Positions 57,089 through 60,937 of a stretch of 64,000 nucleotides of DNA are shown one piece after another (the first letter of the stretch is position 1; each line of letters opens with the position of its first letter). The stretch is from positions 370,131 to 434,130 of the forward strand of contig NZ_JACSQD010000003.1 in NCBI RefSeq assembly GCF_014836775.1, written 5' to 3'. Under the pieces are notes generated by a model. The model was not told the DNA's origin. It ran no database searches and saw nothing but the letters and a program-made list of their open reading frames with translations. Source of the DNA: Arthrobacter gallicola. GTDB taxonomy: Bacteria; Actinomycetota; Actinomycetes; Actinomycetales; Micrococcaceae. The translations under genes and the position numbers were made by a program.

Positions 57089-57508
57089 TCAGCACCCGAG
57101 GTCGGACTCCAGTCCGTCCCGGGCGCTGCGGATCTGGTCGATATCATCGGACAGCGAGGCGGCGGCCTGGGGCACCGTCATCGACTCATCGATGTTCGCG
57201 ACGGCGTCGTCGAAGTTCTTCCAGGCATCGTCGAGCGCGGTCCGGCGGTCCTCGGCAACGGACTCCAGGGCCGGTCCCAGGTCCTGATACGCGTTGCGGA
57301 TGCTGTCGCGTTCCGCCTGGATTTCCTCGATGGTGGAAGAAGAGTCGATCGATGTTCGTGCGTCGGAGACGGTGCCGGAAAACTCCGCGTAAGCGTCGCA
57401 GGCCGACTGTGTGTTCTCCGCGGGGGTGTCGTTGCCGCTGCAGGCTGCTGCCGAGAGGGCAGCAGCGGCGAAAACGGCGGTCAGGGCGAATCGGCTGCTG
57501 CGGAACAT
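57089..57508 (-). CDS. Small helical lipoprotein, hypothetical
   Basis: A 139-residue predicted lipoprotein. The ATG at 57508 follows AGGAGG and starts a signal sequence ending SAAAC (lipobox Cys at about 23). The mature part is acidic and helical with repeated hydrophobic/charged spacing (ERDSIRNAYQDLGPALESVAEDRRTAL), likely a helical bundle. No known family. It converges with the ABC permease gene, nine bases away. Confidence 0.72.
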   Translation of the reverse strand: MFRSSRFALTAVFAAAALSAAACSGNDTPAENTQSACDAYAEFSGTVSDARTSIDSSSTIEEIQAERDSIRNAYQDLGPALESVAEDRRTALDDAWKNFDDAVANIDESMTVPQAAASLSDDIDQIRSARDGLESDLGC

Positions 57509-57561
57509 GGACGCCTCCTGGAGAATCATGGATTTCGGCTGCGCACGGCGCTGCAGGAATC

Positions 57562-57666
57562 ATGGGCCGGATCTACATTCTCCGTAACGTGGGAGACAAG
57601 CGGAAGGCAGCGGAGGCGGAGCTGCTGCTGTTCACCGGAAAAGCCCGCAAAAAAGCCAGGCTGTGA
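57562..57666 (+). CDS. Possible 34-aa basic protein (uncertain)
   Basis: Short frame MGRIYILRNVGDKRKAAEAE… ending KKARL, with an AGGA only a few bases before the ATG. Its last codons lie inside the hairpin that ends the tRNA-Arg transcript from the other strand. No family recognised; it could be a real small protein or chance. Confidence 0.25.
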   Translation: MGRIYILRNVGDKRKAAEAELLLFTGKARKKARL

Positions 57667-57696
57667 CTTCCCCGGAGGGAAAATCACAGCCTGGCT
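57654..57696 (-). terminator. Terminator of tRNA-Arg
   Basis: Perfect 13-base stem (57654-57666 with 57684-57696), 17-base loop, followed on the minus strand by six T. Lies 13 bases after the tRNA 3' end. Confidence 0.88.
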
Positions 57697-57708
57697 GTCT
57701 CACATGCG

Positions 57709-57781
57709 TGCCCTCGATAGGATTCGAACCTACGGCCTGTTGCTCCGGAGGCAACCGCTCTATCCCCTGAGCTACGAGGGC
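57709..57781 (-). tRNA. tRNA-Arg (anticodon CCG)
   Basis: 73 bases on the minus strand. Acceptor stem GCCCTCG/CGAGGGC, D arm GCTCAGGGGATAGAGC, anticodon stem-loop GTTGC-CTCCGGA-GCAAC with CCG at positions 34-36, and T arm TAGGTTCGAATCCTA. It reads CGG codons. CCA is not encoded. Terminator follows. Confidence 0.96.
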
Positions 57782-57889: not shown

Positions 57890-59425
57890 TTAGTACCCCA
57901 GGAAGGGGTCCGTGTGGACCTTCCGGACACCCGCCCGGCGGACTTCACGCCGGGCGAAAGCAACAGCCGAGGGTGATCCGGCCAGGAAAGCTGACCGCAC
58001 GGCGGCGTCGGGCACGGCCTGCAGCAACCGGGCCGCATCCGGGAGGCCGGGGCCAAGCCAGGTCCATCCCGGCAGCAGCGGGTCCTGCGGTGTGCAGGCG
58101 AACAACTGCACGCCCAGCTGCGCGAGTTCCGCTGAGTAAGCCAGCTCCTGAGCTGATGAGGCAGCATAAACCAGCACGATGTCCCGTCCTCCAGGCCCTC
58201 CGGCAGGGCCGCTGCCGAGGGACCGCAGCTGGCTGATAAAGGGCGTGATTCCGATTCCCGAAGCCACCATCAAAATCTTCTGCGCAGGATCGCGGGGAAG
58301 CTGGAAGTCTCCGCCCACAGTCGTGGCAGCAACCCGGGTGCCGGGCTTCGCGCCCAGCAGCTTCGTCTTGAAGGAGCTGCCGGGGGAAGCAACCCGCATG
58401 GCTATGGACACTTCGCCCGCGTCTGCGGGATCCGAGGTGATGCTGAAGATCCGCCGCAGCCCCCGTCCATCCGCGTTCTGGTGCGGAAGGCTCAGTTCCA
58501 GATACTGGCCGGCCCGGTAACGCAGGGGGCGTTCCGGAACGAACACCAGTTCGCGGGACGTTGGGGTCAGTTCCCGGGTTTCGCGAAGGCGCAGGCTGAT
58601 GCCGCCGCGCTGACCGGCCGCGAAGGCCAGCAGGTTTCCGACAAGCAGCGCCAGCTCAGGGGACATAAAGACCGGCCCGGCGGAGAGCGGAGTTGCGAAC
58701 AGGACTGCGACGACGCCGGCTTCAGCCAGGCGCTGCCAGCGCAGGGGCGGCAGGGTCAGCGGCTCGGACAGCATAAAACCGGCAAAGAAGATGATGGGGT
58801 AGGAGGTGAAGGCAGTGACCAGCCCTTCCAGGGCTGACTCGCCGGAAACGGCGAACCGGAGAACCACAATCCCAACGGTGACCAGGGTAAACACTCCCGC
58901 CATCGGCAGCAGCCGGCTTCGGTAGAGCACCAGCAGAGCGGCTGGCAGAACGACAATGAGCATCAGTGGAGCGGCAACCCACCACACCGGTGTGTTGAGC
59001 CCCGTCAGGCCAATCACGACGGCGCCGACCGCCGCCGGGTTGAAAATGTGCCGGCGGCGCCAGGCGAGAAGGTATTTCGAGGCAGTGGCGGCAAACGCTG
59101 CCAGGGCAACGGTGCCAAGTTCAGGTCCGCTGGTGGTCGGCCAGAAGAGGAAAAACAGCAGGAGGCCGGTGATCAGCGCAGAGTCTGTCTGCGGGAAGGT
59201 GCGGAACAGCAGGCCCATCACCCGGCTGGCTACCAGTGTTGAGATCACGGCAGTCCCCAGGGCCGCCCCCAGCTCCGCCGGCGTATAGAAAAGTGCGCCG
59301 GTCAGGGAAAGCACGAAGGACCATGCCACCATGGCCAGCAGCGCCAGCACGAGCATGCGGTACATGCTCGTTTTACCGAGCAGGCGCTGCAGCCGAGCGG
59401 TGGGGGTACTCAGGGATACGGTCAT
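57890..59425 (-). CDS. RnfD/NqrB-like membrane domain fused to FAD/NAD(P) oxidoreductase
   Basis: A 511-residue fusion predicted to move electrons across the membrane. Residues about 20-275 hold six or more helices with RnfD/NqrB-like marks (ASKYLLAWRRRHIFNPAAVGAVV; FFAGFMLSEPLTLPPLRW) but without the S-G-A-T flavinylation site of NqrB/RnfD. Residues about 285-511 form a ferredoxin-NADP reductase: FAD motif RRIFSIT and pyridine nucleotide motif MVASGIGITPFISQL. The ATG overlaps the apbE stop by four bases. Together with ApbE and the FMN-binding lipoprotein it makes one three-gene module. Confidence 0.88.
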   Translation of the reverse strand: MTVSLSTPTARLQRLLGKTSMYRMLVLALLAMVAWSFVLSLTGALFYTPAELGAALGTAVISTLVASRVMGLLFRTFPQTDSALITGLLLFFLFWPTTSGPELGTVALAAFAATASKYLLAWRRRHIFNPAAVGAVVIGLTGLNTPVWWVAAPLMLIVVLPAALLVLYRSRLLPMAGVFTLVTVGIVVLRFAVSGESALEGLVTAFTSYPIIFFAGFMLSEPLTLPPLRWQRLAEAGVVAVLFATPLSAGPVFMSPELALLVGNLLAFAAGQRGGISLRLRETRELTPTSRELVFVPERPLRYRAGQYLELSLPHQNADGRGLRRIFSITSDPADAGEVSIAMRVASPGSSFKTKLLGAKPGTRVAATTVGGDFQLPRDPAQKILMVASGIGITPFISQLRSLGSGPAGGPGGRDIVLVYAASSAQELAYSAELAQLGVQLFACTPQDPLLPGWTWLGPGLPDAARLLQAVPDAAVRSAFLAGSPSAVAFARREVRRAGVRKVHTDPFLGY

Positions 59426-60297
59426 GAAAAAAGGACTCCAGCCATAGCGTTGGAAAACTGTGCCCTGCCGTCGGAAAACATCCGGACGTACTCGAAGCTG
59501 AACTCGGCTGCGAGCAGGGCGGGGTCTGTGATGAAAAGTGCGGTTGCCAGGCCGTCGGCGGTCATCGCGTCGGCAGCCAGCACCCAGGTGGCGGCCACGG
59601 CGTCCACCGGGCGGCCCGTGGAAGCATCGAGAACGTGGTGGAGGCCTTCACCCCAGCTCCGGCGGTTGGCGGCTGAGGCGCACAGTGCGCCGTCCTGAAG
59701 GTCCAGAACGCCAATGGCCGCTCCCGGATCGTAAGGGTGTTCCAGGGCAACCCGGAGGCTCTCCGGCCCCGAATGCCTCATATCGGAACCGGCGTCTACC
59801 ACTACCGCAGCATATCCGCGCGCGGTGAGCAGCTCCCAGACGAGGTCCACCAGCTGTCCTTTCCCGGCGGCGCCTACATCCACGGTGGCTGGCTGGTTCA
59901 GGGTCAGCGCCACGGTTTCCACTGCCTCCTGGCGCTGCCAGGAGACGGTGGACGTCCAGCCCGGAGCCGCAGCCGGCGGGCCCAGGGGGCGCAGCGGGTA
60001 TCCGGGTCCATAGCCGAGCTGCTCCAGCGAACCCCCGACCAGCGGGTTCAGCCTGCCCTGTGTCAGCCGTTCCAGGCTGTCGAACAGGTCCAGGAGGGGT
60101 GCGGCATAGCCGGGAAGGATGGCGGTTCCGCCACTGTGGCCCAGAGTGGTCACCGCGGAATCCGGACGGAACCGGGACAACGCTGCGTCGTACTGTTCCA
60201 CGAGCGCGGCCACCTCACTGCGGACAGCAGTGTCCACCGGCACCTCCGTGGTGATGTGCCACTGAGTGCCGATCGCCTCAAAGCTGAAGGACTCCAT
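59422..60297 (-). CDS. apbE: FAD:protein FMN transferase ApbE
   Basis: Flavinyltransferase that links FMN to Ser or Thr of exported proteins. 291 residues, with the family boxes EQYDAALSRFRPDSAVT, TVDVGAAGKGQLVDLV, HHVLDASTGRP and MTADGLATALF. There is no obvious signal peptide, so its location is unclear; exported ApbE proteins are usually lipoproteins. It lies 13 bases after the FMN-binding lipoprotein gene and overlaps the reductase gene, pointing to both as functional partners. Confidence 0.94.
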   Translation of the reverse strand: MESFSFEAIGTQWHITTEVPVDTAVRSEVAALVEQYDAALSRFRPDSAVTTLGHSGGTAILPGYAAPLLDLFDSLERLTQGRLNPLVGGSLEQLGYGPGYPLRPLGPPAAAPGWTSTVSWQRQEAVETVALTLNQPATVDVGAAGKGQLVDLVWELLTARGYAAVVVDAGSDMRHSGPESLRVALEHPYDPGAAIGVLDLQDGALCASAANRRSWGEGLHHVLDASTGRPVDAVAATWVLAADAMTADGLATALFITDPALLAAEFSFEYVRMFSDGRAQFSNAMAGVLFS

Positions 60298-60310
60298 GAG
60301 CTGCGGACCC

Positions 60311-60784
60311 CTAGCCGGCGGCCTCGCCCTTAATCATCTCCAGGGCCTTGTTGAAGCCCTGGCTGGTGAGGGAGGAACCTGCCACCTTGCCGACATCCAG
60401 GCTGTCCAGGGGCTTGCCCACTACCTGCTCCTGGATTCCGTCGGTGAACTCCGCCTGGTACCGCTTCGACGTCGGATTGTTGCCCGACGGCGTGACCTCC
60501 ACAGCGGTTACGGTGCCGCCGGAAAGGGTCATTTTGACGGTGACTTCTTCCTTCTGGTTCGACGGAGGAATGTAGGAACCGGTTCCCGTGTATTCGCCGT
60601 CGGCGTAGTTCCCGGGGCCCTCCGCGCCGGTCCCGGCCGCGGCCGATGCCGGGGAAGAAGCGGGGGAGGACGCCGGCGTGCCTGCGGCATTGTCTGCGGC
60701 ACCGTCAGAGCCGCAGCCTGCGGTCCCGAGCAGCGTTAACCCGGCAACGACGGTCAGAAGGGGCTTTGTGGCCTGGGGTTTCAC
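60311..60784 (-). CDS. FMN-binding domain lipoprotein (ApbE substrate)
   Basis: A 157-residue lipoprotein: GTG start at 60784 after GGAG, lipobox GTAGC (Cys24), Ser/Ala-rich spacer (about 30-57) and an FMN_bind domain (about 58-152). The flavin attachment region reads DVGKVAGSSLTSQGF: relative to the usual S-G-A-T-x-T-S, Ser138 takes the Thr position. It should be flavinylated by ApbE and carry electrons outside the membrane, taken from the reductase encoded downstream. The final acceptor is not apparent. Confidence 0.88.
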   Translation of the reverse strand: MKPQATKPLLTVVAGLTLLGTAGCGSDGAADNAAGTPASSPASSPASAAAGTGAEGPGNYADGEYTGTGSYIPPSNQKEEVTVKMTLSGGTVTAVEVTPSGNNPTSKRYQAEFTDGIQEQVVGKPLDSLDVGKVAGSSLTSQGFNKALEMIKGEAAG

Positions 60785-60908
60785 GGTTTCTCCTTGGTCT
60801 CTGGCGGCGCGTCCGCTGGGAGCAGTTGACCGCCGCGGCGGCTGGGCAGCCGGGCGGGGACGAGAAAGATGCTCCCCCTTTATTACAGCGCATGAACCCT
60901 GCAGGTTC

Positions 60909-60937
60909 GGCTCTTCGGTGCCCGGCACCGAAGAGCC
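60909..60937. repeat. Perfect 14-base inverted repeat upstream of argS
   Basis: Arms 60909-60922 and 60924-60937 are exact complements with a single-base loop. It lies between the divergent FMN-binding gene and argS. It has no T run and may be an operator, cruciform or stem in the lipoprotein mRNA leader. Confidence 0.8.

Follow-up and report, generated by a model that had tools for sequence, protein, structure and literature searches.

The closest described relatives of the locus considered here are the NQR/RNF-like clusters, which, according to Meheust et al. (2021; eLife e66878, PMC8238504), occur in 127 genomes, mainly of Actinobacteria and CPR, contain exactly the fusion of an NqrB/RnfD-like domain to a cytosolic NAD-binding reductase that is found here, together with an FMN_bind subunit and ApbE, and were proposed to carry electrons from NAD(P)H to the outside. 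The operational rule of that survey was a match of the protein itself to PF03116. Huang et al. (2024; mSystems e00375-24, PMC11334425) showed the membrane part to lack a flavin site and modelled a complex from Ktedonobacter in which the flavin of the lipoprotein lies close to a pocket for a non-covalent flavin. Substrates of ApbE carry the consensus D-x-x-[S/T]-G-A-[S/T], in which Ser as well as Thr is used as acceptor (PMC12052999), and there are precedents for Ser acceptors in other families.

The NQR and RNF complexes have a homologous NqrB/RnfD membrane subunit, an FMN_bind protein (NqrC or RnfG) and a reductase domain (NqrF) in common with the present locus but consist of six or seven subunits as opposed to two, and the locus has neither a 2Fe-2S ferredoxin domain nor a covalent flavin site on its membrane subunit. 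The MsrQ-like flavinylation systems, which are common in Actinobacteria, and NOX-type reductases such as SpNOX also couple a membrane electron carrier to an FNR-type reductase or to FMN_bind and ApbE, but have bis-His hemes in place of the one conserved His (H126) noted here. The locus is a published NQR/RNF-like electron-export system, so the core idea is not new; the fused form, which an earlier note on this DNA had regarded as less familiar, was described in 2021 and 2024 together with its missing membrane flavin site. The differences that mark the present branch, relative to those systems, are an acceptor motif of [AGS][GS]SSL[TS] as opposed to [S/T]GA[S/T], proteins most of which either fail or only just match the survey's Pfam models, and an ApbE without a leader.

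Organization and conservation of the operon

The window, a stretch of 64,000 nucleotides from Arthrobacter gallicola, contained the following features.

60311..60784, minus strand: FMN_bind lipoprotein, 157 residues (open reading frame with ribosome-binding site; Pfam FMN_bind)
59422..60297, minus strand: ApbE FAD:protein FMN transferase, 291 residues, without signal peptide (Pfam, E 4e-38)
57890..59425, minus strand: fusion of an NqrB/RnfD-like membrane domain and a ferredoxin-reductase domain, 511 residues (hhalign, AlphaFold, Foldseek and positive-inside analysis)
60881..60888, minus strand: candidate -10 promoter element, TGTAATAA, approximately 95 nt upstream of the operon start

The lipoprotein gene starts with GTG behind a good ribosome-binding site (AAGGAG) and is separated by 13 bases from apbE, which overlaps the fusion gene by 4 bases, all three minus-strand reading frames lying where the earlier note had placed them. 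The sequence TGTAATAA is a possible -10 element and appeared by eye to be conserved in relatives within the genus. Upstream of the operon lies argS on the opposite strand, and between them a perfect 29-nt palindrome, GGCTCTTCGGTGCC-C-GGCACCGAAGAGCC, was noted at window positions 60909-60937. This palindrome was rejected as an operator because it occurs once in the genome and is absent from relatives, and control by an FMN riboswitch or other RNA was rejected because Rfam matches were to tRNA only. Just downstream of the operon, a minus-strand tRNA-Arg(CCG) gene and, behind it, a strong terminator-like stem of 20 pairs with a run of T were noted at window 57654-57781, and downstream of the operon and this tRNA gene a small, helical predicted lipoprotein of 146 residues and no clear family is encoded on the minus strand (window 57089-57529).

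The nearest named relatives of the three proteins were from Arthrobacter (A. luteolus, A. pullicola, A. citreus and A. koreensis). The trio was present in 29 of 29 genomes of the genus, with one frameshifted copy (G014), and the fusion occurred in each of the other 28 genus genomes as well as in a single genome from another genus of the family, gene order and the 4-base overlap being the same in the intact copies from both genera. By Pfam search, ApbE was present in 29/29 genomes of the genus, and the operon copy was the only one in 28 of these, the pieces of the frameshifted G014 copy being counted as one; genome G025 contained a second ApbE/FMN_bind set besides the operon. The source genome encodes one ApbE and one FMN_bind protein, adjacent to each other.

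A wider scan of named genomes identified 368 relatives of the fusion. Among the best 80 of these 368, which came from Arthrobacter, Pseudarthrobacter, Paenarthrobacter, Agreia, Leifsonia, Glaciihabitans, Mycetocola, Cellulomonas and other genera, ApbE adjoined the fusion in 80/80, and FMN_bind was present in all 77 with sufficient contig. Similarly, among 396 genomes sampled across the phylum, ApbE was nearby for 8/8 full fusions and was not found with stand-alone FNR domains. Every full-length fusion examined thus sits with ApbE, which is the opposite of the wide occurrence of fusions without ApbE and FMN_bind partners that the earlier note had named as fatal to its interpretation. Since order and overlap are kept across the genus and one other genus, and since ApbE is always adjacent among the best 80, the trio is not a chance arrangement.

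Individual copies showed other features. In Glaciihabitans sp. dw_435 (L081), FMN_bind is 2.4 kb away, an opposite-strand aldehyde dehydrogenase gene (1277-2941) lying between it and apbE with the fusion. Both apbE and the fusion are broken by frameshifts in G014 (L031), and an in-frame TAA is present within the membrane part of the fusion in G353 (L120).

Comparison of neighbouring genes among relatives indicated that argS adjoins the operon in Micrococcaceae and unrelated genes do so elsewhere, only the trio being kept together. No redox, iron, heme or respiratory gene was conserved beside the operon in this comparison, and no conserved acceptor or terminal reductase was found next to it. 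Thus, iron reduction is not favoured by context over other acceptors, and the attempt to infer the electron acceptor from neighbouring genes was given up.

The membrane and reductase domains of the fusion

The fusion consists of a membrane domain with 10 transmembrane segments (approximately residues 1-270) and an FAD/NAD(P) ferredoxin-reductase domain (approximately residues 276-511). PF03116 (NqrB/RnfD) matched neither the window protein nor any protein of its genome, so that the fusion falls outside the operational rule of the 2021 survey; nor is it a canonical NqrB or RnfD, the loop that carries flavin in those proteins being missing. Two relatives (G066 and G149) passed the PF03116 cut-off, and in hhalign a profile of 52 fusions aligned over 236 columns, at 95.5% probability and E 1.3e-8, with RnfD/NqrB as represented by RsxD from E. 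coli and by RnfD/NqrB proteins from within the same phylum. These two results indicate that the homology is real; on sequence comparison the membrane half is classed as a true NqrB/RnfD homologue, and the earlier assignment of this domain is borne out. When the membrane part was compared directly, by profile, with sequences of solved structures, no match was obtained; this search and a first AlphaFold run with a shallow alignment (pLDDT 72) were replaced by the 52-sequence alignment, which gave a model of the fusion with pLDDT 91.3 and pTM 0.87.

The core common to the fusion and RnfD/NqrB includes SA[LVI][LIV]TG, a Lys preceding the next loop, and FNPA. Near residue 155 the fusion has a deletion in place of the loop on which RnfD/NqrB carry their flavinylated Thr, in agreement with the claim that the membrane part lacks an S-G-A-T site, and a look-alike, S194-G-E-S197, was rejected as a second flavin site because it is not conserved. 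The membrane part of the 52 proteins contains a single conserved His (H126) in place of the two heme-His pairs of MsrQ and NOX proteins, so bis-His hemes are absent and heme-based transfer of the NOX/MsrQ type was rejected. Mean numbers of Lys plus Arg were 12.4 in predicted inside loops versus 0.33 in outside loops, with inside exceeding outside in 52/52 proteins, and this strong positive-inside topology places the reductase domain in the cytosol.

The two reductase domains of the fusion scored just under the Pfam cut-offs (one at 21.6 bits versus 22), and the protein falls just below PF00175. In a Foldseek search with the AlphaFold model, the C-terminal half resembled FNRs, the FAD domains of NqrF and the dehydrogenase domains of SpNOX; the model clearly points to an FNR/NqrF-like fold.

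The predicted lipoprotein acceptor site and the leaderless ApbE

The lipoprotein has a Sec-type leader with a lipobox (GTAGC) followed by an Ala/Ser/Pro-rich linker, so the FMN_bind gene next to the fusion encodes both a signal peptide and a lipidation site, and a leader and lipobox Cys were likewise found in 74 of 77 lipoproteins of the wider set. The FMN_bind match of the window protein barely exceeded the Pfam cut-off (E 2e-4, 22.4 bits versus 22), and the cut-off was passed in 16 of 29 genomes of the genus, one of which (G025) passed by way of its second, canonical FMN_bind gene.

The acceptor motif in the window is G-K-V-A-G-S-S138-L-T-S, the numbering of Ser138 given earlier being correct. 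In the motif of the branch, [AGS][GS]SSL[TS], this Ser is invariant in 29 aligned orthologues and in 77/77 wider relatives, all 77 sites ending in Ser-Ser followed by L-[TS]; the great majority read [SDG]-K-V-[AS]-[GS]-S-S, and SKVAGSSLTS and DKVAGSSLTS are the commonest forms. Thus, the final Ser of the exact ApbE consensus is kept, while two or three other positions depart from it: Ala is replaced by Ser at -1, Ser/Thr usually by Ala at -3, and the usual Asp is missing from the window copy. Because the canonical V[ST]GATNTS is kept with the two most divergent fusions (G149 and G414), and VSGATYTS in other FMN_bind proteins of actinomycetes, the Ser acceptor looks derived in this branch.

The oddest feature of the locus, which the earlier note overlooked, is the combination of an exported substrate with an ApbE that lacks a signal peptide. 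Residue 7 of ApbE already aligns with solved ApbEs, so the protein starts at its fold. A hydrophobic leader was found in 0/77 homologues; the best 14-residue hydrophobicity of ApbE had a median of 0.40 and a maximum of 1.54 among these, whereas the lipoprotein leaders had a median of 2.03, as determined by a simple hydrophobicity measure rather than a trained signal-peptide predictor. A further 47 ApbE loci from Actinomycetes, 30 with the top scores and 17 chosen by hand, showed nothing ahead of the fold that could convincingly be read as a leader; the start of the fold could not be placed for L189, and in L194 a hydrophobic stretch occurs further upstream in frame. The ApbEs of these Actinomycetes (L164-L210) seem leaderless despite exported FMN_bind partners, even beside canonical VSGATYTS proteins (L200 and L202). 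Tat export was rejected as a way round this puzzle, as twin Arg occurred in 10 of 77 scanned regions, mostly upstream of the likely start.

A 2025 review describes cytosolic ApbEs with intracellular substrates only, and the available portions of the NQR/RNF-like papers (eLife 2021 e66878; mSystems 2024 e00375-24) do not discuss ApbE localisation. We tentatively suggest that cytosolic ApbE may flavinylate the lipoprotein before Sec export, perhaps in Actinomycetes generally, in which case the flavinylated chain would pass through the translocon and [AGS][GS]SS could be an adaptation of this branch; this proposal is possible, though on balance doubtful. The alternative is an unrecognised export route for ApbE.

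The proposed electron path and its alternatives

The preferred reading, to which we assign a probability of roughly 0.82, is that the trio forms a minimal transmembrane electron-export chain belonging to a divergent branch of the NQR/RNF-like systems. Cytosolic NAD(P)H would reduce FAD in the C-terminal reductase domain, from which electrons would cross the NqrB/RnfD-like membrane domain, probably by way of a flavin bound non-covalently, as it is in NqrB, to reach FMN at the outer face, where the lipoprotein is predicted to carry it on Ser138 in a phosphoester linkage made by ApbE. From this FMN, electrons would presumably pass to a diffusible or otherwise unlinked acceptor. This order of carriers, proposed in the earlier note, is consistent with the published model and with all sequence tests, the computed basis being gene anatomy, co-conservation, homology, topology prediction and the absence of both a membrane flavin site and heme ligands. 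Points against it are the departure of the acceptor motif from the consensus, the ApbE without a signal peptide and the lack of a conserved acceptor gene beside the operon. With no return leg in the trio, an ion pump is not expected, in contrast with the NQR and RNF complexes.

Three other readings were weighed. That the degenerate AGSS motif is not flavinylated, with the lipoprotein binding flavin non-covalently or serving another role and ApbE acting on an unseen substrate, would accord with the breaks in consensus at -1 and usually -3 and with the Asp missing from the window copy, but is improbable given that the genome's only FMN_bind protein adjoins its only ApbE, that over 100 copies all have the Ser, which would drift if the site were unused, and that the most divergent fusions retain the canonical motif. 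Somewhat less probable again is a fusion that acts mainly as an NADH:quinone reductase for membrane menaquinone, the lipoprotein flavin being a side or regulatory site. Although NqrB and RnfD are parts of respiratory complexes, and NQR hands electrons to quinone at the NqrA/NqrB interface, the genome has no canonical NqrB/RnfD gene by PF03116 and the lipoprotein is always kept alongside the fusion.

Flow in the inward direction, from an outer donor through the lipoprotein FMN to an FNR domain that makes NAD(P)H, is the least likely of the three and in our estimate very unlikely, since the neighbourhood has no conserved oxidase or dehydrogenase to act as donor and the potential of NAD(P)H favours outward flow in aerobes, even though electrons move inward on the NqrC-to-NqrB leg of NQR and ferredoxin reductases can work in both directions.

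Failure of the PF03116 rule of the 2021 survey and passage of the FMN_bind cut-off in barely more than half of the genus indicate a divergent branch that the 2021 and 2024 method would often miss. Standard Pfam models miss this branch, and the published count of 127 genomes is thus likely too low. The puzzle that the locus exposes is an exported lipoprotein whose only flavinylating enzyme would be an ApbE without a leader, and flavinylation before export, if true, would overturn the rule by which exported flavoproteins receive their flavin outside the cell from an ApbE that is itself exported. For the organism and its relatives, the findings show that an electron-export system already published, but uncharacterised, belongs to the fixed core functions of this whole Arthrobacter-group genus and is common in related genera.
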